Assembly: GCA_017612755.1 (NCBI GenBank)
Contig: JAGAFH010000050.1
Span: 1-12,125 of the forward strand
Source of the DNA: Clostridiales bacterium
GTDB lineage: Bacteria; Bacillota; Clostridia; Saccharofermentanales; Saccharofermentanaceae
DNA length: 12,125 bases
Direction: 5' to 3'
Part shown: piece after piece, positions 1-12,125 of the stretch
Layout: each line of letters opens with the position of its first letter
Numbering within the stretch: the stretch's first letter is position 1
Made by a program: the position numbers and the translations under genes
The notes under the pieces: model-generated
Database searches by the model: none
Told to the model about the DNA's origin: nothing
The model's input: only the letters and a program-made list of their open reading frames with translations

Positions 1-670
1 GAAGGGAGTGCCTGTCGTACTTCTTTCCATGACAGGTTCCGCTATGGATCTTTCTGTTGCAGATAAGGATGCAAATGCCATCCTCCAGGTCTGGTATCCC
101 GGCGCCGGCGGCGGAAAGGAGATCGGTGAGATCTTAAACGGCAAGACCGATCCTTCCGGAAAGCTTCCCGTAACTGTCTATAAGGCTACATCAGATCTTC
201 CCGAGTTTACGGATTATTCAATGAAGGGAAGAACATACAGATATATAGAGACCACGCCTCTCTATCCTTTCGGATACGGACTTACCTACAGCGACATCAG
301 GCTTACGGAAGCTTCCATCGTATCCGGTGACTCCTTCTCCAAGGCGTCGGAAGAGGGTATGGTCATTAAGGTTAAGGCTGAGAACTTCTCAGATATCAAG
401 GGCGCACAGGTAGTGCAGGTATACGTTAAGAATGGTGATTCCAACGAGACCCTTCATCCCCACCTGGCAGCCTTTGAGAGGATAAATGTGGATCCCAAGG
501 CGACATCGCAGATCGAGATCAAAGTTCCCGCCAAAGCATTTACGACCGTAGATGATGAGGGAGTAAGAGCAGTAAGAGGTTCTTCGGCAAAAGTCTTCGT
601 AGGCTGCGGACAGCCGGACGAGAGAACAAAGGAACTTCTGGATCTTAAGATATTCGAATTTGATATTTGA
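1..670 (+). CDS. Glycoside hydrolase family 3 beta-glucosidase-type protein, C-terminal part (5' end outside window)
   Basis: The reading frame is open from the first base (first full codon at 2-4) and stops with TGA at 668-670, so only about the last 222 residues are present. The visible part matches the end of the GH3 C-terminal alpha/beta sandwich: a WYPGAGGGKEIGEIL segment and DPSGKLPVTVY, then the GRTYRY...PLYPFGYGLTYS signature that leads into the fibronectin type III-like domain (about the last 120 residues). GH3 enzymes of this build usually remove terminal beta-linked glucose or xylose from oligosaccharides. The nucleophile domain and any signal peptide lie upstream, so substrate and location cannot be judged. 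The gene ends in a region of inverted repeats and converges with the next gene. The family call is firm; the exact specificity is unknown. Confidence 0.93.
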   Translation, partial: KGVPVVLLSMTGSAMDLSVADKDANAILQVWYPGAGGGKEIGEILNGKTDPSGKLPVTVYKATSDLPEFTDYSMKGRTYRYIETTPLYPFGYGLTYSDIRLTEASIVSGDSFSKASEEGMVIKVKAENFSDIKGAQVVQVYVKNGDSNETLHPHLAAFERINVDPKATSQIEIKVPAKAFTTVDDEGVRAVRGSSAKVFVGCGQPDERTKELLDLKIFEFDI

Positions 671-720
671 TCTTTTTCATAAAGATCCCCCGTCCTGTGT
701 ACTGGCCGATAAACAGGACG
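669..720 (+). repeat. Two consecutive inverted repeats after the GH3 stop codon
   Basis: A perfect 7-bp repeat, GATCTTT (669-675) with AAAGATC (681-687), has a 5-nt loop and begins inside the GH3 stop codon. It is followed at once by CGTCCTGT (691-698) with ACAGGACG (713-720) and a 14-nt loop. Neither is followed by a good T run on the plus strand. They may protect the mRNA end or assist the terminator just downstream. Confidence 0.5.
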
Positions 721-738
721 AGGGAAAACCTTTCACAG

Positions 739-776
739 GCGCCCTGCATCATAAGTTATGCGGGGCGTCTTATTAT
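739..776 (+). terminator. Probable intrinsic terminator, possibly bidirectional, between convergent genes
   Basis: An 11-bp stem is formed by 739-749 (GCGCCCTGCAT) and 758-768 (ATGCGGGGCGT), with two G-T wobble pairs and an 8-nt loop. A T-rich tail (CTTATTATTGTCTCTT) follows on the plus strand. On the minus strand the stem starts five bases after the stop codon of the convergent gene and is followed by a short TTTT, so it could serve both genes. The T tracts are interrupted, so its strength is uncertain. Confidence 0.6.
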
Positions 777-1423
777 TGTCTCTTAAGCTGGATAACGATA
801 AAGGCTGTCAGGGTGGCAGACACCGCCATAAGGACCAGTCCCACTGCCAGATTCCTGTTGGTATTTGTGCCCGAAGGCTCCACTACATAAGGCAGGTATA
901 CCCGGTCTGCAGCCGCGCCGGTATAACCGAGATCTCCCAGGTAGTCCCTGAGATACTGTTCTTCAGTGGAACTCATCTTTCTGAGTTTTCCGGATATATG
1001 ATAAGTGGTGGAATTTGAGATTATGTGGAAAGACGTGTAGCCGTTCTGCTTAAGGTTGGCCCTTATTGATTCGTAGTCATCGATCTCATCCCTGCTGCAC
1101 TTAAAGGTCAGATACATATTGATCTCCCCGTGAAGGGAATCGGAAAAGTCAAGAAGAGGATAAAGGTAACGTCTGGATACGGGATTTCCTGCCCTTGTAT
1201 ATTCCAGATAGTAATCCCCCATGTAGGGCAGATCCATCTCTATCCTGTCCCCGGCCTCAAGATCTTCCCATTTAACGTGGGGATCGGTCAGGTCGATGGC
1301 GCCGGCACTGCTGTCCATCATTCCGCTGATACCGGAAAAGATCAGGTAGAGGGAGATGAAGAACATAATGACAGCTCCGCCTATGGCTCTGTATAGGATA
1401 ATATTGCTGTTCTGACTGCTCAT
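773..1423 (-). CDS. Membrane-anchored protein of unknown function with two TM segments
   Basis: I do not recognise the family with confidence. From ATG at 1423 the product is 216 residues. It has a short polar N-terminus, a hydrophobic segment at about 9-35 (containing AVIMFFISLYLIFSGI), a soluble middle domain of about 150 residues rich in Tyr and acidic residues, and a second hydrophobic segment near the C-terminus (LAVGLVLMAVSATLTAFIVI) ending in KRQ. This topology puts the middle domain on one side of the membrane, probably outside. An in-frame GTG at 1459 would add 12 residues. Neither start has a good Shine-Dalgarno site. I prefer ATG because a minus-strand TATAAT at 1479-1474 would leave only about 8 nt of leader before the GTG. 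The gene converges with the GH3 gene and diverges from the lipoprotein gene at 1530. Confidence 0.75.
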   Translation of the reverse strand: MSSQNSNIILYRAIGGAVIMFFISLYLIFSGISGMMDSSAGAIDLTDPHVKWEDLEAGDRIEMDLPYMGDYYLEYTRAGNPVSRRYLYPLLDFSDSLHGEINMYLTFKCSRDEIDDYESIRANLKQNGYTSFHIISNSTTYHISGKLRKMSSTEEQYLRDYLGDLGYTGAAADRVYLPYVVEPSGTNTNRNLAVGLVLMAVSATLTAFIVIQLKRQ

Positions 1424-1473
1424 GGGGTGATTATATCCGAAAAAGCTGAGTTTTCCCACATTTAATAAAAAAA

Positions 1474-1479
1474 ATTATA
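1474..1479 (-). promoter_or_regulatory. Possible -10 element of the minus-strand membrane-protein gene
   Basis: On the minus strand, TATAAT is a perfect sigma-A type -10 hexamer about 50 nt before the preferred ATG at 1423. No convincing -35 is seen. It lies within 10 bp of the plus-strand -10 element, so the two divergent promoters would overlap and could compete. A second TATAAT (1435-1430) sits 6 nt before the ATG and could only give a leaderless message. Confidence 0.4.
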
Positions 1480-1485
1480 CTTTTC

Positions 1486-1497
1486 TGTGGTAGAATC
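1486..1497 (+). promoter_or_regulatory. Extended -10 promoter element of lipoprotein 1
   Basis: TGTGGTAGAATC contains a TGn extended -10 directly before TAGAAT. It is the same element, with two purine changes, as those at 3438-3449 and 8853-8864, and lies 32 nt before the ATG. A more classical alternative just upstream is TTCCCA (1453-1458), 17 bp, TATACT (1476-1481). Either could be used; the shared motif favours the extended -10. Confidence 0.5.
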
Positions 1498-1516
1498 TAA
1501 CGGAAATATATTTGAT

Positions 1517-1525
1517 GAGGGAAGA
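1517..1525 (+). promoter_or_regulatory. Ribosome binding site that selects the ATG at 1530
   Basis: GAGGGAAG lies about 6-9 nt before ATG 1530. Codons further upstream in the same frame (TTG 1512, ATG 1515) would overlap this site and have no site of their own, and they would put charged residues ahead of the lipoprotein signal peptide. Confidence 0.6.
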
Positions 1526-1529
1526 TAAT

Positions 1530-3422
1530 ATGTTCAAAAAGGTGACCGCCATCATACTTTCGGCAGTTATGCTGCTGGTGCCCCTGACGGGCTGTTCCAT
1601 GGGAGCAAAAAAAGAGATAGACAGCACTGTAGACTGGTATCTGTCTACCATGACGAAGCTTAAGTATGAGAAAGCTTCCGAGTATGTTATGGGAGAAGAC
1701 AACAACTACCTTAACTATATTCCCTCAGGCTCCGACAAGCAGATAGTCGATGCCCTTCTTGCCAACTGTGAATATGAGATCGGCGATGAGACCGTATCGA
1801 TGGCAGACGGTGAAGCCTCCGCAGACGTTACGTTTACTTTTGCGGATGTGCACCAGCTCACAGAGGATGGTATATCCGTAGCTGACCTGAAAAGTGAGAT
1901 CAGAAAGATGAAGAAGACTACGGAGGAAGTGTTCACCGTAGATCTTATCAAGGACGGAAGCCACTGGTTCATCGATCCTGATTCCGCCACCGAGTTTATG
2001 ATCTTTATGGGGAATATGGTGGAAGGCCTCGAGGTCATGGGCCTTTCCGATACGGGAGCCCTGGCTTATGCTGACCAGTTCGTGGAGACCTTAAGAAGCG
2101 GTGATATCGATGCTGCCATGGAGATGAACAACGGAGCGGATCTCACCCTTTCCGGTGATTTTACATACATGTATCTTTATGACATGACTGGTTTTTACGA
2201 GGCTGAAGGGGAGATGCTGGCAGATTATTATTCTTCCTTTGATTACACAGCTTCCATTATCGATTCCCAGGAGGACTATATCAGGGTAAGTCTGACAGGA
2301 CAGGCCCCCGACATCTCCCAGGGAATGGAAAACCTGAAAAATGACATGCCGGTCTTTGCTCCTCTCTATGGTGAGGCTTTGGGCGATTACTTCATGGATC
2401 CGCTGGGATATGACTACGACTCATATGATTATGATTCTGTCTACATTTCATACCTGAAACTGCTGGGTGCAGCAGCTGATTATTCAACGACCACTGTGCC
2501 TTTTTCCTTTGAGCTTGAGATAGCCGAGAGAAATAACGGAGAGCTTTATATTTCCAGCATGACAGACCTGATCCCTGCATCAGACGCTTTCTCCTACGGA
2601 TATCTGAACTATGATAACGAGATCATTATCCAGGTCCTTGACCAGCTCCTTGAAGACGGTCTGATCACCCGGGCAACTTATGAATATGATATCGACTCCT
2701 ATGGTCTCGGAACATATGTGGAAGGAATGCTCTTCACTTATAGCGGAACTGAAATGTATAACTTCGATGCTTATATGGATTCTGACAAGATCACCATGAA
2801 CATCACCACCTGGGGTTACTACAATACCGGAGATACCTTCAAATATGACGTCTATATCGACGGAGTACAGCAGCCCGGAAACCACACTATAACGGTCAAC
2901 GGATATGACACGGATGATATCGTCCTTGAATATCCTCTTCAGAACTGCGAACTCCCTGCAGGTGATTATGTCTTCGACATCTATGAGGAAGGCGGAGGAA
3001 CTTCAAATGTTATTATTACCATAAGTTTCCACTGTGACGGGATCGTCATGTCGGAGAATTATCACACATCCGGAGTTGTCTACGATACCAGCGATGACTT
3101 CTACTCCCTCTCCAGCTATCTTTCATCGGATTTTATATATGAGACTTATAACGGATATGCATCCACCAGTGACGGTATGTATATCATGATAAACACCTGG
3201 TCATTTAATACAGGTCTGCCTTCAGAATATACATATGAGATCACCCGGGACGATGAAGTCGTCGCGACCGGAACAGCCGAATACTACAACACCTATTCCG
3301 ACCAGATCAGGATCTCCTACAGGGAGGGCAGATCCGGAGGCCTTACGCCGGGCGTATATATCGTTACGGTCTATGAGCCGGACGGAAGTGTTCTCTGCCG
3401 GGTCAACTATAACGTACAGTGA
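1530..3422 (+). CDS. Large cell-surface lipoprotein with NTF2-like N-terminal modules and two C-terminal Ig-like repeats (lipoprotein 1)
   Basis: The 630-residue product starts with a clear lipoprotein signal peptide (MFKK, hydrophobic core, LTGC with Cys22), so it should be anchored to the outer face of the membrane. After the lipobox comes a region of the style YLSTMTKLKYEKASEYV...YEIGD...HWFIDPDSA. This resembles NTF2-like/DUF4878-type modules and seems to be present twice (about 27-170 and 175-345). The C-terminal part holds two 83-residue beta-rich repeats with Trp428 and Trp557 at equivalent places. The middle is very rich in Tyr and Asp (GYDYDSYDYDS). It is a paralog of the lipoprotein at 3874: Cys22, YEIG, the DPDSA motif and the TW-centred beta domain occur in the same order, but this copy has one extra C-terminal repeat. 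No enzyme motif is visible. Its role may be sensing or scaffolding at the envelope (inference). Confidence 0.85.
   Translation: MFKKVTAIILSAVMLLVPLTGCSMGAKKEIDSTVDWYLSTMTKLKYEKASEYVMGEDNNYLNYIPSGSDKQIVDALLANCEYEIGDETVSMADGEASADVTFTFADVHQLTEDGISVADLKSEIRKMKKTTEEVFTVDLIKDGSHWFIDPDSATEFMIFMGNMVEGLEVMGLSDTGALAYADQFVETLRSGDIDAAMEMNNGADLTLSGDFTYMYLYDMTGFYEAEGEMLADYYSSFDYTASIIDSQEDYIRVSLTGQAPDISQGMENLKNDMPVFAPLYGEALGDYFMDPLGYDYDSYDYDSVYISYLKLLGAAADYSTTTVPFSFELEIAERNNGELYISSMTDLIPASDAFSYGYLNYDNEIIIQVLDQLLEDGLITRATYEYDIDSYGLGTYVEGMLFTYSGTEMYNFDAYMDSDKITMNITTWGYYNTGDTFKYDVYIDGVQQPGNHTITVNGYDTDDIVLEYPLQNCELPAGDYVFDIYEEGGGTSNVIITISFHCDGIVMSENYHTSGVVYDTSDDFYSLSSYLSSDFIYETYNGYASTSDGMYIMINTWSFNTGLPSEYTYEITRDDEVVATGTAEYYNTYSDQIRISYREGRSGGLTPGVYIVTVYEPDGSVLCRVNYNVQ
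2784..3032 (+). repeat. Ig-like repeat unit 1 of lipoprotein 1
   Basis: This 83-codon unit has the pattern D-x-I-x-M-x-I-x-T-W, then FKYDV, D-D-I-V-L-E-Y, L-P-A-G-D-Y and IYEEGG. It aligns without large gaps with the unit at 3171-3419. The match is at protein-pattern level, not long DNA identity, so the duplication is old. Confidence 0.6.
3171..3419 (+). repeat. Ig-like repeat unit 2 of lipoprotein 1
   Basis: This 83-codon unit has the pattern D-x-M-x-I-M-I-N-T-W, then YTYEI, D-Q-I-R-I-S-Y, L-T-P-G-V-Y and VYEPDG, and runs to the stop codon. The paralogous lipoprotein at 3874 carries only one such unit (around its Trp442). Confidence 0.6.
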
Positions 3423-3437
3423 ACCTGAAGCCTCTTT

Positions 3438-3449
3438 TGTGATAAAATC
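3438..3449 (+). promoter_or_regulatory. Extended -10 promoter element of the five-gene signalling operon
   Basis: TGTGATAAAATC (TGn directly before TAAAAT) lies 29 nt before the ATG at 3479 and is identical over 12 bases to the element at 8853-8864. The best -35 match at 17 bp spacing (TGAACC at 3420-3425) is poor, as expected for an extended -10 promoter. No terminator hairpin is seen between 3422 and this site, so read-through from lipoprotein 1 is possible. Confidence 0.55.
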
Positions 3450-3478
3450 ACCTATATAAAACAAAAGGAGAAAAGATC

Positions 3479-3853
3479 ATGGCCTGTTTCCTCGTTCCTA
3501 CCGCTGAAGCAATAGCAGTCGCCGCTGCTAAGAAGGTCGTATCTAGGAAGGAAGACAATTCCGGAAAGTCCGTAAAGATACCTATGAGCGTTAAGCTTAA
3601 ATGGCTTAGCGGAATGCTGGTGGGAGGATCTTTCCTCCTGGCTTTCGAGCATATCTGGCATGGCGAAGTAACACCCTGGTTTCCTTTCCTTACGGCTATG
3701 TCCGATCCTTCCGACGCGGCAGAGATGTTTCATGAGATGGCAACAGTGGGCGTCACCATGGCTGTTCTCGTAACTTTAGTCTGGGTGGGCATCTGTATCG
3801 CCGCTGACATTATAGTTAAAAGAGTTCCGGAGACTTCAAAAGCCGGAGCATGA
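3479..3853 (+). CDS. Small conserved-type membrane protein, two TM segments, unknown function
   Basis: The gene has an excellent ribosome site (AAAAGGAG at 3463-3470, 8-nt spacer). The 124-residue product starts MACFLVPTAEAI, continues with a Lys/Arg-rich stretch (about 19-41) and has two hydrophobic segments: about 44-58 (WLSGMLVGGSFLLAF) and about 90-112 (VGVTMAVLVTLVWVGICIAADI). The loop between them holds FEHIWHGEVTPWFPFL and FHEMATVGVTM, which look too specific to be filler. I have an impression of having seen this MACFLVP...EHxWHGE pattern in hypothetical proteins of many anaerobes, but cannot name a family or function. His, Met and Cys near the membrane could in principle bind a metal or cofactor; nothing more can be said. 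It is the first gene of the operon, 20 nt before lipoprotein 2. Confidence 0.85.
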   Translation: MACFLVPTAEAIAVAAAKKVVSRKEDNSGKSVKIPMSVKLKWLSGMLVGGSFLLAFEHIWHGEVTPWFPFLTAMSDPSDAAEMFHEMATVGVTMAVLVTLVWVGICIAADIIVKRVPETSKAGA

Positions 3854-3873
3854 GATAAGGGAGATTTCATATT

Positions 3874-5496
3874 ATGAGAAGGAAAATAACCGGCGTTATA
3901 CTCGCCGTATCTGTACTTGCGGGCTCTTTGACCGGATGCTCGCTTTTTACGTCTAAAGACAGAGCCGCCATCGAAGAAAAGGCGGATACTTTCATGTCTG
4001 AGATCTTACAGGTCAGATATGAAAGAGCTGCCAGAACCGTTCTGGACGGGGATGAACACTTCATGAAAAAGCTGCCCGATGATAACAAGCAGCTCACTCT
4101 TATGGAAGAGGTGATGTACAACAGCACTTATGAGATCGGGGAGATCGAAGTCCATAAGATGGACAAGGAAGCCACCTGTCTTGTGACAGTATCCTATTCC
4201 GATGTGGAAGCCATCACCGCCGGCGGCGATCTTCTCATGGGAGAAGTGATAACGGCTGTGGACGAAAAACAGGAGATAACAGAGACGGAGCTGACGGTAA
4301 ACTTTGTCTATGAGGATGATGAGTGGTCCGTAGATCCCGACTCCGCATCGGACATTATCATTTTCTTCTCTGATCTTTGTGAAGACCTGTCTCTCGGAGG
4401 TATTAACGAGGAGAATTCCATAGAGTTTGCGCAGCAGTTTATCGGTATGATGGCCGGCGGATCCGGTATGGATGCTCTCGCTATGGCCGGCATAACAGAA
4501 GATGATGTTATCGATGCTCTCGATCTTGAATATTACTTCTATGATAATGATATCGACCAGGAGATCACAGACAGCCTTGACGAGATGATGGCCGCTTATT
4601 TTTCCACTTATGAACCCACATATACAGCCCAGTATGTGAATGATAATACATATGGCGTTTCTATTTCCGGAGATGCGGTGGATGATATGGCAGCTATTCA
4701 GGAACTGATGCTGGACGAGGACAGTTTTGTTCCCCTGTTTGCCGATCTGCTGGAGCCTTTCGCTGCTGTATATGACAGCTACGATTTTAACATTGACCTG
4801 AACTCATTCTTCAGTTCATATGCAGATATCTATACGACTGCCTTACAGGGGTGTACAGCTACTGCCGACAAGTCATTTTACGTTGAAGTGACCTGTGATG
4901 ATTATGGTAACTATTCTATTGTTACAGATGGTTGCGGGGATATCCTTCCTGACTGTATAGAAAATCTCTTTTCTATCCTTGAAGGTGTTGATGAAAGCAC
5001 TATGCTGGCGGCTGTGGAGCTCCTTCACGATGAAGGCCGTATGTCCGATGCAGCATACCAGAGTATCGCTTCCCAGTATTGGGAGACGGAACTTCCTGAA
5101 GGTATGGAGCTGTTCATACCCGCTGTGTATGAGGATGCGGTCTATCAGCATGAGGCTTTCTTCACCGGAAACATGGTGTGCTTCGGTATAGAGACCTGGG
5201 ATTATTCCGATGCGGGAGACATATACAGATATGATCTTATGCTGGACGATGAACCTCTGGTGGAAGGCGGCACCTACGAGTCCCCTACCGATTACTCCGA
5301 TGTGATATTTATTTCCTATGATTTCGGAGATGAGATCCCCGAGGGTACTATATCTCTCACTGTCTATACAGAGGGAGCTTCCTCACAGACAGTTCTGATC
5401 CAGCTCTATCTCGTGCCTGAAGGTTCGGATACCGTGCCGGACGATCCGGGTTCCGGAAGTGGCAGCGGTTCCCTAAGGTTTGACACTGATGACTGA
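3874..5496 (+). CDS. Cell-surface lipoprotein with NTF2-like modules and one Ig-like domain (lipoprotein 2)
   Basis: The 540-residue product carries a lipoprotein signal peptide (MRRK, hydrophobic core, LTGC, Cys22). The order of elements copies lipoprotein 1: YERAARTVLDGDE for YEKASEYVMGED, STYEIGEIEV for CEYEIGDETV, EWSVDPDSAS for HWFIDPDSAT, a second helical/beta module (about 180-360), a helical stretch (about 370-410) and a beta domain around Trp442 with IPEG...TVYTEG. It lacks the extra C-terminal repeat and ends in a low-complexity PGSGSGSGS tail. The protein is strongly acidic. Its stop codon lies only 2 nt before the 7TM sensor gene, so the two are very probably co-translated. A role as an extracytoplasmic partner or input module of that sensor is a reasonable inference, not shown. 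Translation starts at ATG 3874 after AAGGGAG at 3857-3863. Confidence 0.87.
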   Translation: MRRKITGVILAVSVLAGSLTGCSLFTSKDRAAIEEKADTFMSEILQVRYERAARTVLDGDEHFMKKLPDDNKQLTLMEEVMYNSTYEIGEIEVHKMDKEATCLVTVSYSDVEAITAGGDLLMGEVITAVDEKQEITETELTVNFVYEDDEWSVDPDSASDIIIFFSDLCEDLSLGGINEENSIEFAQQFIGMMAGGSGMDALAMAGITEDDVIDALDLEYYFYDNDIDQEITDSLDEMMAAYFSTYEPTYTAQYVNDNTYGVSISGDAVDDMAAIQELMLDEDSFVPLFADLLEPFAAVYDSYDFNIDLNSFFSSYADIYTTALQGCTATADKSFYVEVTCDDYGNYSIVTDGCGDILPDCIENLFSILEGVDESTMLAAVELLHDEGRMSDAAYQSIASQYWETELPEGMELFIPAVYEDAVYQHEAFFTGNMVCFGIETWDYSDAGDIYRYDLMLDDEPLVEGGTYESPTDYSDVIFISYDFGDEIPEGTISLTVYTEGASSQTVLIQLYLVPEGSDTVPDDPGSGSGSGSLRFDTDD

Positions 5497-5498
5497 TC

Positions 5499-6980
5499 GT
5501 GGATAACGCCAGCGTACATACCAAAAAATGGTTCGCTTTTATGATATCTCTGATAATAGCTGGAGGTATCTTAAGACTTCTTGGCTTTCAGAGCGGTCTC
5601 ATCATCTTCTGTCCCGGTGTCATCATCTGGCGTGAGACGGTGGCGGTCAGGATCACGGATAAAAAGATAAGACATTCCCTTCTGGCTATATCGGATATCA
5701 TCGTCCTCTTCATGGTCTGCAGGGCCGTCAGGTATGTATTCCCGGAACATGATACTAATATCTCACTGTTTTCCTGGTATCTTTACAGCGCATGCCGTTC
5801 CATGATCGCGGCCTTTTCCTTTAAGGTGGCCTACGACGTTAAGTCGAATATAAAGACCGGCAGTATCCTTCCCAGGATCGTCTTCGCTCTTGAAGTGGCC
5901 ATATCCATAGCCGTACTTACAAACAATCTTCATCATCTGATCTACAGGTTCCCCACCGGGGACATACTGGATTATACCCACGGGCCTCTTTATATCCTCT
6001 GCCAGGTCTTCGTATGGGTGCCCCTGGCCTCATCTTTCTTTATCCTTTACAAGAAGTGCAAGATCACGGCCAGCAGGAAGTTCGCCTGGATCCCCTTCAT
6101 CATCATGGGTACCGGCGGAGCCCTTCTTATCATAAGGGAAGCAGTGTCACCGGATCTTCTCATATTCGCAATGTACAACGTGCCGGAGATCTTCTCCATC
6201 ACCATCCTGGTATTCTGGGAGGCCATGATCCAGATAGGATTCCTTCCCACCTGTTCAGGCTACGAAAACCTCTTTGAGATCTCATCGGTCTGCATGTCCA
6301 TCGAGGGAGAGGAGGAGTCATCCTCAAGAGTATCCAGAGCCGCCAGAGGCATCAAGGGCGGGTCAGACCACATAAGAAAATCCATGAAGATCACCGGGGG
6401 CACCCTGGTGTGGTATGAGGACAGGGCGAAGATCAACGCTCTTAAGAACGAGATCGGAAGAAGGGTGGAGATCCTGTCGGAGGAGAACGAGCTCATCAGC
6501 GCCGAGAATGCCCTTCTCGAAAAGAAGAAGAGATATGAAGTCAACAACGGCCTTTATAATGCCATCGCAAAAGAGGCCGGCACCCAGATAGAGAAGATGG
6601 AAAAGGAACTGGACGGCGGCGGGGATCTGGCACTGTGCGCCGTTTACGGAGCCGGCATAAAGAGAAAGGCCAACCTGGTCATCCTGGCCACCCAGGGGGA
6701 CAAGATCCCCCTGTCGGAACTTTACCTGTCCATCAGGGATTCCATGGAGTACGTGAAGCTCACCGGGGCCTATGCTGCGGTGTTTATCGACAGCGATATA
6801 GGAACGAGACAGGAAGAGCCCCTTTTCCTTTTCGATATATTCACCAGATACCAGAATTTCGTGGAGGAAAACCTTCCGGGTATCGACTACCTTTCGGTCA
6901 TCATAACCGGCAGGGAAAAAACGGAGGTCCGTATGGAGATCTCCAAGGGAGAGGAGACGTTCTATGACAGGGTTATGTGA
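5499..6980 (+). CDS. 7TM sensor protein with coiled coil and a degenerate kinase-like C-terminal domain
   Basis: The 493-residue protein has about seven or eight hydrophobic segments over residues 10-240. The stretch NNLHHLIYRF...THGPLYILCQVFVWVPLA resembles the His_kinase_N7TM family, known as the input region of some histidine kinases and cyclases. A cytoplasmic stretch with a coiled coil (about 308-375) follows, and then a 115-residue C-terminal domain. In the kinase-like helix (YEVNNGLYNAIAKEAG) no phospho-acceptor His is found, and no N, G1 or G2 box is recognisable, so it appears unable to phosphorylate (inference). It starts at GTG 5499, 2 nt after lipoprotein 2, without a good ribosome site, which suggests translational coupling. 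ATG 5541 is a less likely alternative. Its end overlaps the true kinase gene by 17 nt. It probably acts as the sensing partner of that kinase. Confidence 0.8.
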   Translation: MDNASVHTKKWFAFMISLIIAGGILRLLGFQSGLIIFCPGVIIWRETVAVRITDKKIRHSLLAISDIIVLFMVCRAVRYVFPEHDTNISLFSWYLYSACRSMIAAFSFKVAYDVKSNIKTGSILPRIVFALEVAISIAVLTNNLHHLIYRFPTGDILDYTHGPLYILCQVFVWVPLASSFFILYKKCKITASRKFAWIPFIIMGTGGALLIIREAVSPDLLIFAMYNVPEIFSITILVFWEAMIQIGFLPTCSGYENLFEISSVCMSIEGEEESSSRVSRAARGIKGGSDHIRKSMKITGGTLVWYEDRAKINALKNEIGRRVEILSEENELISAENALLEKKKRYEVNNGLYNAIAKEAGTQIEKMEKELDGGGDLALCAVYGAGIKRKANLVILATQGDKIPLSELYLSIRDSMEYVKLTGAYAAVFIDSDIGTRQEEPLFLFDIFTRYQNFVEENLPGIDYLSVIITGREKTEVRMEISKGEETFYDRVM

Positions 6981-8223
6981 TCTTCTCTTCGCTTACAGGT
7001 TTGTGCTCTTCATGGTGAACGTGATCATCCTTTACGTTTCCGTAAAGAGTTTTGCCGTCACCGTCAACAGCCCCATCAGGCACAAGTGGGTCATCGTACT
7101 GCCCCTTCTGTCCTTTGTGTACTGCGGAGCCATGATCGAGACCCTGGCCGATATCGAACTGAAGACGGACAGTGTTGTTTTCGCTTTCCTGATGAAGGCC
7201 CCCGCAGTGATCCTGGGGACTTTTGATTTCCTGCTCCTGTTCCTTCTCATCGGGTTCTATGTGGTGATCAACGAAGTGAAGACCAGGTATGTGGGTCCCC
7301 TGTCGGTAAAGGACGGTATCGACCAGATCGGAGCGGGCCTGTGCTACTTCTGGGACAACGGCATCGTGAAGCTGGCCAACACCAGGATCAACGAGATCTC
7401 CAGGGCCATGACGGGGACTGATATCTATGATGCCAGGGAGTTCATGTCGAAGATAAACGAGCACGGCAGCAAGTACACCATGCCCGACGGGAAAGTCTAT
7501 GAATTTGATACCAGAAGGCTCATCATCGACAAGGTGGAGATCAATGAGCTGGTGGCTACGGAAGTAACGGAGGAGGAGAACCTTCTGAAGGAACTGATGA
7601 ATAAGGAGAACGAGCTCACCGCCTTTAACGAGAGACTTAAGTCCTACGGCGCCTCGGTAGATGAGATCACGGTCCAGAGGGAGATACTTAACACCAAGCT
7701 CAAGATCCATGACGACATGGGCCAGACCCTTCTTAAGACGAAGCATTTTATCGAGTCGGGAAGCGAGGATCCGGAGGAAAAGGCAGAGCTTATAGACACT
7801 TGGAAAAAGGCCCTGAGCCTTAAGGGCGAGACATCTGTTCCCGGCTCCAACGAAGGCGTCCTGGATGATATGTATGAGGCGGCGGACGCCATCGGCATAA
7901 AGATGCATGTTGAAGGGGAACTTCCCAAAAACAACAGGGAGCAGGTCAGGATCTTAGTCCAGGGAATAAGGGAATGTCTGACAAATGCGTATAAATATGG
8001 CGAAGCTAAGAATATTTATATTAAGATAGACGCGAAAGTGGAATATACTTATATAGAATATACGAATGACGGGACCCCGCCCAAAGAGAAGATCAGGGAA
8101 GGCGGAGGGCTGTCGGGACTTCGAAAAGTAGTGGAAGGGTACGGCGGAAAGATGGCTGTAGTATCAGAGCCTCAGTTTGCCGTCAGATTATTATTACCGG
8201 AACGGAGGAAGAGACGTGGATAA
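6964..8223 (+). CDS. Membrane sensor histidine kinase (PAS-like domain, H box HDDMGQ, HATPase)
   Basis: The 419-residue kinase has three hydrophobic segments (about 9-33, 42-58 and 80-103), a PAS-like domain (about 112-200: GIDQIGAGLCYFWDNGIVKLANTRINEIS), a coiled coil (about 203-245), the phospho-acceptor helix LKIHDDMGQTLL with His249, and a HATPase_c domain. The ATP site shows the N box RECLTNAYKYG (Glu337, Asn341), the G1 motif NDGTPP (Asp369, Gly370) and the glycine-rich G2 motif EGGGLSGL (379-386). It should autophosphorylate on His249 and pass phosphate to the regulator encoded next. The gene starts at ATG 6964 inside the preceding gene, with AGGGAGAGGAG at 6946-6956 as ribosome site, and overlaps the regulator by 8 nt. 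Codon use becomes AT-rich and TTA-containing towards the 3' end (about 7978-8200). Confidence 0.9.
   Translation: MTGLCDLLFAYRFVLFMVNVIILYVSVKSFAVTVNSPIRHKWVIVLPLLSFVYCGAMIETLADIELKTDSVVFAFLMKAPAVILGTFDFLLLFLLIGFYVVINEVKTRYVGPLSVKDGIDQIGAGLCYFWDNGIVKLANTRINEISRAMTGTDIYDAREFMSKINEHGSKYTMPDGKVYEFDTRRLIIDKVEINELVATEVTEEENLLKELMNKENELTAFNERLKSYGASVDEITVQREILNTKLKIHDDMGQTLLKTKHFIESGSEDPEEKAELIDTWKKALSLKGETSVPGSNEGVLDDMYEAADAIGIKMHVEGELPKNNREQVRILVQGIRECLTNAYKYGEAKNIYIKIDAKVEYTYIEYTNDGTPPKEKIREGGGLSGLRKVVEGYGGKMAVVSEPQFAVRLLLPERRKRRG
8204..8208 (+). promoter_or_regulatory. Ribosome binding site that selects the GTG start of the response regulator
   Basis: GGAGG with a 7-nt spacer precedes GTG 8216. 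The longer frame from TTG 8177 has no site of its own and would add 13 residues before the normal receiver start (KKKVLIVEDQ). Confidence 0.75.
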
Positions 8224-8839
8224 GAAAAAAGTACTCATTGTTGAAGACCAGGTACTGGTCAGGAAATTCATCGAGAATGCCCTTGCCGACAGCGACAGGT
8301 ATGAAGCATCTTTTTCCATCAAGAATGCGGATCTGGCGGATGTCTACTGCCAGAAGAACGAGATCGATCTTATCCTGATGGACGTCTATACCGACCTGGG
8401 AGCTTCAGGCCTTGAGGCAGCTGCCAGGATCAAGAAGCAGTATCCGGAGATCAAGATCATCGTCATCACATCCCTTCCTGAGTTCTCCTTCATCAAGAGG
8501 GCAAGAGAGATCGGAGTTGAGAGCTTTATGTACAAGGAAGATGAGGCCAATTCCCTTATCTCCATCATGGACAGGACCATGGCAGGTGAGTCCGTTTATC
8601 CCGACAAGACCCCGGAAGTAAAGATCGGTCTTGCCAGCTCTTACGACTTCTCCGAAAGGGAACTGGAAGTTCTGAGGGAACTCACTTCCGGAAATACAAA
8701 TGAGGAGATCGCAGCCAAGCTCTGTATCTCCACTGCAACGGTCAAGACCCACATCGCAAATCTCATGGACAAGACCGGCTTTAAGAGCAGGACGGAACTT
8801 GCCATAAAAGCAAGGGAATTGGGGCTTGTAATACTGTAA
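8216..8839 (+). CDS. NarL/LuxR-type response regulator
   Basis: From GTG 8216 the product is 207 residues, the usual length for this class. The receiver domain (about 3-120) has the acidic pair Glu10-Asp11, the phospho-acceptor Asp56 (LILMDVY), Thr85 and Lys107, so all key residues are present. The C-terminal LuxR-type helix-turn-helix (about 144-198) reads FSERELEVLRELTSGNTNEEIA, then STATVKTHIANLMDKTGF. It should bind DNA when phosphorylated by the kinase encoded just upstream, with which it overlaps by 8 nt. The target promoters are unknown; the shared upstream elements at 1486, 3438 and 8853 are candidates to test. It is the last gene of the operon. No clear terminator follows, so transcription could continue into the GGDEF fusion gene 60 bp away. 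Confidence 0.94.
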   Translation: MDKKKVLIVEDQVLVRKFIENALADSDRYEASFSIKNADLADVYCQKNEIDLILMDVYTDLGASGLEAAARIKKQYPEIKIIVITSLPEFSFIKRAREIGVESFMYKEDEANSLISIMDRTMAGESVYPDKTPEVKIGLASSYDFSERELEVLRELTSGNTNEEIAAKLCISTATVKTHIANLMDKTGFKSRTELAIKARELGLVIL

Positions 8840-8852
8840 TCCCGACTTCTGA

Positions 8853-8864
8853 TGTGATAAAATC
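8853..8864 (+). promoter_or_regulatory. Extended -10 promoter element of the GH16-LacI-GGDEF gene
   Basis: TGTGATAAAATC is identical to the 12-mer at 3438-3449 and lies 34 nt before the ATG at 8899. The TG directly before ATAAAAT is an extended -10 arrangement; no convincing -35 is seen at 16-18 bp spacing. Ribosome site GGGAG (8886-8890) follows, 8 nt before the start codon. Confidence 0.55.
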
Positions 8865-8898
8865 CCATTAGAGGCTTTAGAGAGCGGGAGTTTATCAG

Positions 8899-11547
8899 AT
8901 GGATAATAATATCATTCCGGAAAGTTATCATCTGATCTGGTCAGATGAGTTTACCGGGGACAGCCCCCATGTCCGGAACTGGAACTATGAGATTCAAAAA
9001 CCCGGCAGGATCAACGGCGAGCTTCAGGAGTATATCGCCAGCGACAAGTATGTCTGCGTAAAAAACGGCGAACTCATCATCCGCCCCGAGAAGACGGAAG
9101 GCCCGGACGGGAAGGTCTCATACTACTCAGGGCGCGTAAACACTTTTTCAAAACATGACGTAAAATACGGCCGGATCGAGGCTATGATCAAGGTGCCCAA
9201 GGGCAAAGGCCTCCTTCCCGGTTTTCAGATGCTCCCGAAAGACGACAGATACGGAAGATGGCCCGAAAGCGGATGCATCAATGTAATGGAGATCAGGGGA
9301 GACCGGACCGATACGGTCAGGGCCTCTGTGGAATACGGACTTCCCTTCCGGGAAGATGCGGGATCCTATGTGATCCCTGACGGGACAGAATTCTCGGATG
9401 GATATCATATCTTCACCTGTGAATGGGAGCCGGGAAAGATCAGCTTCTTCGTAGACGGTAAGCTCTATCACACTGTTGATAACTGGTTCAGCACTGACAT
9501 CGCCGGCAAGAAGAGAGCATATCCCACGCCTTTTGATATGCCCTTCTATCTTGTGTTCTACGTGGCCGTCGGAGGCACCAAGGCGAGAGAGCCCGATGAG
9601 GATCTGGTCCTTAACGAAGACACCGCCATGCATGTTAAATATGTAAGGGTCTACCGGAAGGATAATTACGAAGAGATCAGGAAAAGGCAGGTCAGGATCA
9701 GGAAGACTATCGCCATCTGCGGTGTCTGGGAAGATGCAGACAACCTGAACCTCTTCTTAAGGTCCATGCTGGACAGCGGGATCTCGGATAATTATCTTCT
9801 GGAATGTTTCACCTTCGGTATCGCCAACGAGAATCCGGAGGAGGTGGCTACGGAACTGGAGTTTGCCGACTTTGTGGGCAATATGGACCATGCGGCCATC
9901 ATCCTTTTCGGAGAGATGCTGAAGACCCAGGCCCTTATCGACAGGCTCAAATCCTACGGACTGAAAAAGAAGATCCCCGTCTTCATGTTCGAGCGGTATG
10001 AGGAGGGGTGCATCAACGCGGTCATGGATTATAAGAGCGGGTTCCGGGAGATGGTGGAACACGTGGTGAAGAAACACGGTATAAGGGACGTGGACATGTT
10101 CGCGGGATTCCGCGGCAACGCTTTTTCGGAAGAGCGTATCGACGTCTATAAGCAGGTCCTTGAAGAGAACGGTATCCCCTTTGAAGAGTGGAGGATCCAT
10201 TACGGGGATTTCTGGGATGCCCAGGCCTTCCAGGTCCTTTCGGGTCTCATCAGTTCCGGCTACAAGCTCCCCAAGGCTTTTATCTGCGCCAACGACTCCA
10301 TGGCTATCGGTGTCTGTGACTGTCTTAAGCAGTACGGATACAAGGTCCCGGACGACATAATCGTCACCGGTTTTGACGGAGTCTGGCAGGGTGAGTGCCA
10401 CAATCCGTCCATATGTACATGTAAGCCGGACATCCCCATGGTCACCAGCCTTATAGGCGAAAAGATAAGGAAGTGGGACGAGTCCATGGCCGGGGAGACG
10501 GATTCCATCGGATTTGATTTCGAGCTGGTGCCTAACCATTCCTGCGGATGCCTCCGGGCGGAAGACAAGGACTGGAGCGAAGCGGTGGTCTCTTTGGTAT
10601 CCAACAACCAGGATTACTTCAGGCATGTTCTTGAGATGGGAAGGTTTATCTCCAGGACCATCGGCATGAGCGACGTGGACGAAGGCGCAAAGGATCTGGA
10701 AAAATATCTGTGGCTGTGGAAATGGCAGTACTACTTCATCGGCATCAACGAACCGGATGAAACGGTCCGGGCCATCTTCCACGGAAGAAACGGTGAATAT
10801 AAATACCGGGAGACTTACAGAAATGTCAGAAACGGCATCCCGGATATAAAGAGCATCAGCGCTGAGGACAGTGATATAAATATCCTTCTGTTCAAGCAGA
10901 TCAGGGAACCCTCAAGAAGCCTTGGATATATAGTGGAAGGATTCCAGTATATGACTCTCCGGTTTGAGCAGAGATTTGAGGAGTTCTCCATCTTCGTTTC
11001 CGCCATGGTCAATGCGGTCCTTAACAACCGCCAGCTCATGAAGGCCAACGAACAGATCGAGAATCTGTCCGAGACCGACTATCTGACGGGGATCTATAAC
11101 AGGAGAGGATTCTTTAAGAAGATCGAGTCCGCCCTGGCCGACATCAAGAACAAGGGCAGGAATCTTACCATGGTCTCTCTTGATATGGACGGCCTTAAGA
11201 CCATCAACGACAACTACGGCCACTACGAAGGCGATATCGCCATAACCACCCTGGCCCACGCCATAAAAGCGGCTATCGGGGAGGACGGCATCTGCGCCAG
11301 ATACGGCGGAGACGAGTTCGCCTTTGCCATCCTCAGGGACGAGAGCGCTGAGGATGAGATCGAGACCATCAGGAAAGATATCGAGCAGATGACAGATCAG
11401 GATGAGGCCACCAGGGATAAGCCCTATAAGATCCGCATCAGTATCGGCGCATCATCCGGGACCATCAACAGAAGGCTGGACATCGAGGCCATGATCAGGG
11501 AAGCCGACGAGAAGATGTATGAGGACAAGCAGCAGCGAAGGATCTGA
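8899..11547 (+). CDS. Fusion protein: inactive-looking GH16 beta-glucanase domain, LacI-type sugar-binding domain, GGDEF diguanylate cyclase
   Basis: This 882-residue protein has no signal peptide or TM segment, so it should be cytoplasmic. Residues 10-258 have the GH16 laminarinase fold signature (LIWSDEFTG, NGELQEYIAS, YGRIEAMIKVP, FYLVFYVAVGG). The catalytic ExDxxE is CxNxxE here (Cys126, Asn128, Glu131), so the nucleophile is lost and the domain probably only binds glucan. Residues about 269-553 resemble the effector domain of LacI/GalR regulators (AFICANDSMAIGVCDCL...GYKVPDDIIVTGFDG) without any HTH. Residues 554-724 are a helical, perhaps GAF-like linker. The GGDEF domain (725-882) has DMDGLKTINDNYGH and an intact GGDEF at 803-807, so it should make cyclic di-GMP from two GTP. 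The I-site RxxD is GEDG (794-797), so product inhibition at that site is unlikely. LacI-GGDEF fusions occur in Clostridia; I do not know a described GH16-containing form. The next gene follows after 5 nt. Confidence 0.9.
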   Translation: MDNNIIPESYHLIWSDEFTGDSPHVRNWNYEIQKPGRINGELQEYIASDKYVCVKNGELIIRPEKTEGPDGKVSYYSGRVNTFSKHDVKYGRIEAMIKVPKGKGLLPGFQMLPKDDRYGRWPESGCINVMEIRGDRTDTVRASVEYGLPFREDAGSYVIPDGTEFSDGYHIFTCEWEPGKISFFVDGKLYHTVDNWFSTDIAGKKRAYPTPFDMPFYLVFYVAVGGTKAREPDEDLVLNEDTAMHVKYVRVYRKDNYEEIRKRQVRIRKTIAICGVWEDADNLNLFLRSMLDSGISDNYLLECFTFGIANENPEEVATELEFADFVGNMDHAAIILFGEMLKTQALIDRLKSYGLKKKIPVFMFERYEEGCINAVMDYKSGFREMVEHVVKKHGIRDVDMFAGFRGNAFSEERIDVYKQVLEENGIPFEEWRIHYGDFWDAQAFQVLSGLISSGYKLPKAFICANDSMAIGVCDCLKQYGYKVPDDIIVTGFDGVWQGECHNPSICTCKPDIPMVTSLIGEKIRKWDESMAGETDSIGFDFELVPNHSCGCLRAEDKDWSEAVVSLVSNNQDYFRHVLEMGRFISRTIGMSDVDEGAKDLEKYLWLWKWQYYFIGINEPDETVRAIFHGRNGEYKYRETYRNVRNGIPDIKSISAEDSDINILLFKQIREPSRSLGYIVEGFQYMTLRFEQRFEEFSIFVSAMVNAVLNNRQLMKANEQIENLSETDYLTGIYNRRGFFKKIESALADIKNKGRNLTMVSLDMDGLKTINDNYGHYEGDIAITTLAHAIKAAIGEDGICARYGGDEFAFAILRDESAEDEIETIRKDIEQMTDQDEATRDKPYKIRISIGASSGTINRRLDIEAMIREADEKMYEDKQQRRI
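9274..9291 (+). other. Degenerate GH16 catalytic signature (CxNxxE) within the fusion gene
   Basis: Codons TGC, AAT and GAG encode Cys126, Asn128 and Glu131 in WPESGCINVMEIRG. In active bacterial GH16 enzymes this site reads E-x-D-x-x-E: nucleophile, helper Asp and acid/base. Two of the three are replaced while the framework (WP.SG..I.VME) is kept. Confidence 0.8.
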
Positions 11548-11552
11548 CGTAA

Positions 11553-12125
11553 ATGAAAAAGACTATCCTTCTTATCCTGACTGCTGCCTTCTGCCTCTCG
11601 TCCTGCGTCTCCTACGACAAGACCTGGGAGACTGCGCCCACCACCACCAGGGAACCCATACCTGAACTGGATCTTCCGGAAGATCCCCAGTCGGATCCTT
11701 TTGCGGAAGGTCTTATAGATGCTTTCTATTCAGGACTTCTGGGAAGATCCCCGCTGCAGGAGGAGATGGACATAACTGCCCTTCAGCTTTCCACCGGAAC
11801 CATCACTCCGAAAGACATAGTCAGGGACATCCTGGCAACGGAAGAATTCCAGGCTATTATCCTGAGTAACCAGGGATACGTAGACCGGATCTTCGGGAGC
11901 CTTCTGGGAACAGAGGCAAGTGAGGCGGCAGAGGATTACTGGGTTCGTATGCTGGAGGAAGGGACCACCAGGGATGAGATGGCAGAAGCTGTCATGGACT
12001 ATCCCGAGTTTAATGAATTCTGCGAAGCCTTCGGCTATGAGGCGGGATCTGAAGACGAAGAGGAAGGATATGTTGAGATCACCCCGGATGAGGTCCCGGA
12101 TATCGTGGATCAGACCAGGGACATC
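11553..12125 (+). CDS. DUF4214-like lipoprotein, N-terminal part (3' end outside window)
   Basis: An open frame starts at ATG 11553, 5 nt after the GGDEF gene, and continues for 191 codons to the window end without a stop. GAAGGA at 11537-11542 can serve as ribosome site. The N-terminus is a short lipoprotein signal peptide (MKKTILLILTAAFCLSSC, Cys18), followed by a Thr/Pro/Glu-rich linker. Two repeats of the DUF4214 type follow: about residues 58-107 (GLIDAFYSGLLGRSP...IVRDILATEEF) and about 113-165 (YVDRIFGSLLGTEASEAAEDYW...AEAVMDYPEFNEFC, then FGYEAG). After that comes an acidic stretch. DUF4214 modules occur in surface proteins of many bacteria and have no firmly established activity. The tight coupling to a diguanylate cyclase suggests that a cyclic di-GMP-related surface or matrix function is shared (inference). 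The lipobox is less canonical than LTGC. Confidence 0.8.
   Translation, partial: MKKTILLILTAAFCLSSCVSYDKTWETAPTTTREPIPELDLPEDPQSDPFAEGLIDAFYSGLLGRSPLQEEMDITALQLSTGTITPKDIVRDILATEEFQAIILSNQGYVDRIFGSLLGTEASEAAEDYWVRMLEEGTTRDEMAEAVMDYPEFNEFCEAFGYEAGSEDEEEGYVEITPDEVPDIVDQTRDI

Follow-up and report, generated by a model that had tools for sequence, protein, structure and literature searches.

A predicted soluble LacI-type diguanylate cyclase with a catalytically degenerate GH16 module at its N terminus in Saccharofermentanaceae

What does a beta-glucanase fold do at the N terminus of a signalling protein that appears to stay inside the cell? The question is raised by the gene of a protein, P0001, on a 12,125-nucleotide stretch of DNA (the window) from a Clostridiales bacterium of the family Saccharofermentanaceae (GenBank assembly GCA_017612755.1, contig JAGAFH010000050.1, positions 1 to 12,125 of the forward strand). 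The initial annotation of the window described one cytoplasmic protein of 882 residues in which a glycoside hydrolase family 16 (GH16) fold, a LacI-type receptor without helix-turn-helix (HTH) and an intact GGDEF domain are joined, and it proposed that a glucan or its breakdown product sets the level of cyclic di-GMP (c-di-GMP). The analysis reported here favours, with somewhat better than even confidence, a soluble one-component diguanylate cyclase that is gated by its LacI-type domain and has a second input at the position of the DNA-binding head. The GH16 module that would provide this second input is, as judged from its sequence, dead as an enzyme but kept by purifying selection.

The open reading frame (ORF) of P0001 begins with ATG and comprises exactly 882 codons. 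It is organized as follows.

8899..11547, + strand: gene of the GH16-LacI-GAF-GGDEF protein P0001, 882 amino acids (aa) (ORF, Pfam, orthologues)
8926..9672, + strand: GH16 module, residues about 10-258 (Pfam 65-220; PDB phmmer 12-253)
9274..9291, + strand: former GH16 catalytic motif ExDxxE, residues 126-131, now CINVME (alignment)
9703..10557, + strand: LacI/GalR-type effector-binding domain without HTH, residues 269-553 (Pfam Peripla_BP_3/4; Foldseek)
10573..10956, + strand: GAF-like domain, residues about 559-686 (AlphaFold; Foldseek)
10957..11073, + strand: signalling helix or coiled coil, residues 687-725 (single helix in models)
11071..11544, + strand: GGDEF diguanylate cyclase domain, residues 725-882, with RYGGDEF at 801-807 (Pfam)

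A single frame holds Pfam matches to Glyco_hydro_16 (residues 65-220, E 4.9e-12), Peripla_BP_3 (391-515, E 3.8e-15) and GGDEF (725-881, E 2e-33). The GH16 profile PF00722 scores 46 bits against a cut-off of 22, and residues 12-253 match bacterial GH16 beta-1,3-glucanases in the PDB (best 2hyk, E 3.1e-38). The receptor part matches CcpA, LacI and their relatives in the PDB and the LacI family in Foldseek (E 6e-16). Likewise, the C-terminal part matches diguanylate cyclases in the PDB, and the cyclase matches TIGR00254 (E 1.7e-33). A Pfam scan at E 0.01 found no HTH family in P0001; the GH16 module occupies the HTH slot. There is no apparent transmembrane segment or signal peptide in the protein, whose hydropathy over 19 residues reaches a maximum of 1.03 (0.01 in the first 60 residues). 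Because a membrane-type hydrophobic segment is lacking and the frame above the ATG is open for six codons only, the protein is placed in the cytosol on sequence grounds. The single cytoplasmic protein and its three named domains were thus described correctly at the outset, but that description lacked two elements between receptor and cyclase (about 559-725), a GAF-like domain and a coiled coil.

When residues 555-725 were modelled in isolation by AlphaFold, the mean predicted local distance difference test score was 82. The best Foldseek matches of the GAF-like piece were phytochromes and the GAF domain of Aquifex Nlh2 (best E 2e-4), and 15 matches fell at or below 0.001, with query TM-scores of about 0.4-0.6. 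The GAF assignment of residues about 559-686, which depends on this model, is fair but not firm. Residues 687-725 form one long helix in the AlphaFold models that runs into the cyclase.

Is the fusion real? The genome is fragmented (240 contigs, 70% complete), which leaves room for separate genes having been joined by an assembly error, the outcome that the initial annotation had named as fatal to its claim. However, full-length orthologues of P0001 occur in other assemblies (71% identical in RUG11234, locus L020; 57% identical in UBA9425, locus L021), and the three closest loci have common flanking genes. A search with P0001 residues 1-560 against 115 genomes of the family, 85 of them in the genus, showed that at least 10 of these 85 encode the compact architecture, with lengths of 868-882 aa. 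A longer form (1031-1052 aa, about 1045) with an insert like the carbohydrate-binding module (CBM) family CBM4_9 is present in at least 39 further genus genomes, genome G008 being one that carries it. Together the two forms occupy at least 49 of the 85 genomes; in other words, the architecture whose spread had been in question is common in the genus. No GH16-LacI fusion outside the genus was found among the matches listed in 188 genomes of the order and 391 genomes drawn from the class. Since full-length orthologues recur in independent assemblies, a chimeric contig is rejected, and we give it next to no probability.

The evidence for a sugar-gated cyclase comes from residues that do not vary. 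Sixty members of the family were collected from 62 LacI-matching places among the matches listed. Receptor residues R413, N465, D466 and D493, which we take to lie at LacI sugar contacts, are identical in all 60, whatever the type of head. The GGDEF motif is also present in all 60 together with D762, D764, K767, N770, D771 and D779, to each of which we assign a presumed role in metal or guanine binding. Because the sugar-contact positions and the cyclase residues are invariant, the sugar-gated cyclase core is well supported at the level of sequence, and the description of the cyclase as intact holds. An optional inhibitory I-site, RxxD, lies 6-9 residues before GGDEF in diguanylate cyclases. 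It is absent from P0001, which has G794 and G797 at its two places, and the Asp of the second place is found in none of the 60 members. A Hypr cyclase making cyclic GMP-AMP was considered and is not favoured, as D779, presumably the residue that tells the two kinds of cyclase apart, is kept in 60 of 60.

The GH16 module has followed a different course. P0001 lacks the ExDxxE catalytic triad; its motif reads C-I-N-V-M-E at 126-131, so that the nucleophile Glu has become Cys and the helper Asp has become Asn. The two closest orthologues read SVNVME and SINIMD. All three triad acids are kept in 5 of the 48 members whose motif is readable, and at the nucleophile position these 48 have Q (24 members), S (10), E (7), R (3), D (2), C (1) and T (1). 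In contrast, all 21 of the exported GH16 relatives compared have an intact motif; these were hand-picked from the stop-free top matches, their lipoprotein-like signal sequences being judged by eye. Positions 110, 145, 150, 154 and 228 are W, H, H, Q and W in all 21 exported enzymes but Q, E, F, A and K in P0001. Because five further cleft residues have been replaced along with the nucleophile and the helper Asp, the substrate cleft of P0001 is remodelled. A Glu-to-Gln change is the substitution used to make substrate traps in laboratory mutants. A substrate-trap reading is attractive for the 24 members with Gln, but it is not claimed, since cleft residues change too.

The fold itself has been kept. 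Residues F18, W28, Y90, G91, H170, W176 and D186 are present in 48 of 48 sensors and W14 in 47. The ratio of nonsynonymous to synonymous substitution rates (dN/dS) in the GH16 part is 0.04-0.15 across 11 pairs, of which 10 consist of triad-lost members; the estimate is rough, as dS frequently exceeds 1 (it is 1.73 for the window pair). This ratio is similar to that of the receptor or up to about three times as high. Taken as sequence evidence, these observations bear out the pseudoenzyme proposed in the initial annotation. Could the GH16 part nevertheless be an active cytoplasmic glucanase, making the protein bifunctional? Five members, all compact (L081, L083, L084, L085 and L086), keep the triad as EIDIME and most cleft residues, namely both His, the Gln and the late Trp, in 5 of 5. 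They could be cytosolic glucanase-cyclase hybrids. Even these five, however, are without two other Trp residues that are fixed in the enzymes: the first, at position 110, is kept in 1 and absent in 4, and the second is absent in all. With Cys and Asn at the key positions of P0001 and the triad broken in 43 of 48 members, a bifunctional glucanase is highly improbable.

The GH16 module is one of several heads on the same core. Of the 60 members, 10 have GH16 alone, 39 have GH16 with the CBM4_9-like insert, 1 has the CBM alone, 6 have a barstar domain, 3 have an unassigned short head and 1 (L105) has none. The unassigned heads (L118, L125 and L127) comprise about 150 residues and stand on the same LacI-GAF-GGDEF core. 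Pfam was run on 49 members and found GGDEF and Peripla_BP_3 in 49, GH16 in 38 (all GH16-headed members among those scanned), CBM_4_9 in 18 and barstar in 6. A CBM insert or head is present in 29 of the 49, and in 11 of these the assignment comes from alignment alone. On a tree of the core, built by a quick method with the Shimodaira-Hasegawa-like approximate likelihood ratio test as its sole support measure and with long-branch warnings, the six head types need five changes, which is the minimum possible. In a tree of the GH16 part, the sensors cluster together with a support of 84, next to the 21 exported relatives. Since the sensors group together, a single capture of the GH16 head is favoured, though not proven, by this tree.

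The barstar-headed members suggest what a head can be for. The barstar domain fills the head slot in loci L122, L126, L129, L131, L133 and L134, with a best Pfam E of 1.1e-18. Four loci were tested with Pfam, and in all four the product of the directly upstream gene is a barnase-family ribonuclease (E 1e-17 to 6e-19) whose start looks lipoprotein-like by eye. A tblastn search placed the ribonuclease directly upstream in 5 of the 6 members and found none within 1.5 kb upstream of L134. Loci L171-L174 are listed beside these six as barstar-headed. A search of the genus added to the six members two barstar-headed genes, in genomes G035 and G041, by open-frame length, giving eight in total. Barstar matches occur in 40 of the 85 genus genomes, most of the others being free-standing small proteins. 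Barstar is a tight inhibitor of barnase. Because of this activity and the ribonuclease encoded next door, the head slot is read as a binding input whose ligand can be a protein, and the N-terminal slot is probably modular and swappable. In one genome the barstar-headed cyclase gene is adjoined by a gene for a serpin family protein with a lipoprotein-like start (L171:2908-4185, E 9e-85).

How would such a protein work? On binding a small sugar, the LacI-type domain would alter its closure. The change would then pass through the GAF-like domain and the coiled coil to the GGDEF dimer and set the c-di-GMP output. The GH16-derived head would take the position that the DNA-binding head has in a LacI repressor and would act as a catalytically dead binding module, a second input whose ligand may be a beta-glucan oligosaccharide held in the remodelled cleft or a protein partner. 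While the architecture, the catalytic loss, the selection and the invariant residues are read from sequence, sugar binding, the direction of its effect and the ligand of the head are what we infer from them. EAL phosphodiesterase matches occur in 85 of 85 genus genomes, as do GH94-family matches above the cut-off, some of them weak or partial. In the window's own genome the best GH94 match (3e-39) lies in a 1008-aa frame, and genome G031 has a GH94-family gene just before an exported GH16 gene. Given EAL and GH94 in all 85 genomes, c-di-GMP turnover and cytosolic handling of beta-glucosides in the genus are plausible predictions.

Several observations weigh against a glucan-sensing head or against the wider reading. 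The remodelled cleft suggests that the head of P0001 may bind no glucan, and the barstar heads indicate that a domain in this slot does not have to bind sugar. The full AlphaFold model is mostly confident for the LacI, GAF-like and GGDEF parts and of low confidence for the GH16 part, because 4 of the 18 alignment rows cover it. The gene neighbourhood differs between lineages and singles out no pathway. As for c-di-GMP effectors, PilZ gave no match in the 85 genus genomes (controls were positive in 5 of 14), and the c-di-GMP-I riboswitch was found in 2 of 85 with stricter filters, under which all controls were negative. The c-di-GMP-II riboswitch was found in 0 of 85, with no control genome positive either. 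The proposal that a glucan or its product sets the c-di-GMP level therefore survives in part: the residues kept in 60 of 60 members support its sugar-gated core, while the remodelled cleft and the barstar heads make glucan sensing by the GH16 head a weaker inference for P0001 than was first held.

Does the head bind a sugar, a protein or nothing at all? If the GH16-like head were a protein-binding module rather than a sugar sensor, it would bind a partner as the barstar heads are thought to do. This alternative fits the barnase-family gene that immediately precedes 5 of the 6 barstar-headed members, and it also fits a GH16 domain that stays under purifying selection with its cleft remodelled. 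However, the long form joins a CBM4_9-like module to GH16 (18 of 49 in Pfam), which favours carbohydrate; five members keep the whole triad; and no other GH16 gene is present among the ten window ORFs scanned. On balance a purely protein-binding head is unlikely, although it has a real chance of being correct. The head may instead be a mere scaffold that aids folding or dimerisation of the receptor. A scaffold could explain why the fold residues persist in all 48 sensors although the cleft residues vary, and why one member does without a head. A mere scaffold does not predict that unrelated folds (GH16, CBM-like, barstar) refill the slot, and the dN/dS of the head is comparable with the receptor's or a little higher; this alternative is rather improbable. 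A membrane-anchored sensor of the outside was considered as well and set aside, as P0001 has neither signal nor membrane segment and the extra 150 residues of the long form are CBM_4_9-like where Pfam scores them. The LacI-gated cyclase with a binding head as its second input remains the preferred reading.

No description of a GH16-LacI-GGDEF architecture was found in the open-licence literature, in line with the impression of the initial annotation. The closest systems share parts of it. The Peripla_BP and GGDEF one-component cyclases of Clostridia likewise have a LacI-like domain, a linker and a GGDEF domain. Relatives over P0001 residues about 270-880 occur in Butyrivibrio, Ruminococcus, Treponema and others, but their open frames are mostly 610-660 aa and, by length, too short for a GH16 head. 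The exported GH16 lipoproteins of the genus (for example L002, 45% identical) belong to the same domain family and stand beside the sensors in the tree. However, they have a lipoprotein-like signal sequence (judged by eye) and, in the 21 compared, an intact motif, and their frames of 320-560 aa are too short to accommodate receptor and cyclase. In the anti-sigma factor RsgI6 of Clostridium thermocellum, according to the passages cited, a GH10 domain with very low activity has been turned into a sensor that binds polysaccharide (PMC4711584). RsgI is a membrane protein that senses the outside and acts on a sigma factor, whereas P0001 is cytosolic by sequence, uses GH16 and ends in a cyclase. The N-terminal anti-sigma domain and membrane segment of RsgI were not found in P0001 by Pfam and hydropathy. 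A GH126 protein of Bacillus velezensis with a C-terminal GGDEF domain also combines a glycosidase-family domain with a cyclase domain; it is one of ten proteins with extensions reported there, has another fold, and the cited part of the paper does not mention a LacI domain (PMC7479077). Alpha-glucosidase activity has been claimed for a metagenomic HAMP-GGDEF protein, 'protein 5', reported as GH53, but HAMP and GGDEF are the only Pfam domains named in the portion cited, which includes no GH16 or LacI part (PMC5457731).

The genes around P0001 in the window are the following.

5499..6980, + strand: HK1, membrane protein partly resembling the 7TM region of histidine kinases (PF16927, E 1e-5, below cut-off)
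6964..8223, + strand: HK2, membrane histidine kinase with HATPase_c (PF02518, E 1.3e-6)
8216..8839, + strand: NarL/LuxR-type response regulator (PF00072, PF00196), its start chosen by comparison with L020
11553..12125, + strand: DUF4214 lipoprotein, running off the window (Pfam)

HK1 has a hydropathy of 2.14 and a 43% identical relative in L021; relatives of HK2 are 88% identical in L020 and 44% identical in L021. Because the frames of kinase and regulator overlap, with the P0001 gene starting 59 bp after the regulator, the kinases, regulator and sensor are likely to form one operon. The order of two kinase-like membrane genes, NarL-type regulator, sensor and DUF4214 lipoprotein is the same in the window and L021, and in L020 it is the same from the second kinase gene onward, where that contig begins. 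The DUF4214 lipoprotein follows the sensor in three species (window 11553-12125, L020:4479-5777, L021:6096-6677). The only full-length copy, in L020, ends in a Beta-lactamase2 domain, the copies of the window and L021 running off their contigs. Elsewhere the surroundings change. In L161 a SepF-family gene precedes the sensor and another LacI-GGDEF gene follows it (Pfam), L168 and L169 have a similar-sized GGDEF-related gene downstream (BLAST over 171 residues), and L165 has a BacA/UppP gene as neighbour. The downstream GGDEF-related proteins of these long-form sensors (L161, L168 and L169) are about 770 aa long. As context varies between lineages, neighbourhood was dropped as a guide to function. 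Two large lipoprotein-like ORFs of the window (1512-3422 and 3874-5496) have no Pfam match at 0.01, and promoter and terminator scans stayed at chance level.

What would such a family mean for its bearers? Little seems to be known about the way in which carbohydrate supply is coupled to c-di-GMP. In the cited part of one review, a LacI-like Peripla_BP domain is named only as possibly binding solutes, including sugars (PMC8846402), and in that of another paper, the c-di-GMP of the rumen bacterium Fibrobacter grown on cellulose is about 2.5 times the glucose-grown level (PMC6851124). In the present family a soluble protein brings together two candidate inputs, one after the other. Its GH16 heads form a natural series, from intact through half-dead to dead, on a common core, and it includes barstar heads whose ligand is probably known; this combination makes the effect of an N-terminal input on a LacI-gated cyclase directly testable. 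In the broadest and decidedly tentative interpretation, which we consider doubtful as a whole, the DNA-binding head of a LacI protein has been replaced by a mirror of the cell's own exported hydrolases, either a dead GH16 with or without a CBM or a barstar that would inhibit an exported barnase-like ribonuclease encoded next to it, and the cell may read the state or the products of its degradative secretome, together with a small sugar, into c-di-GMP.

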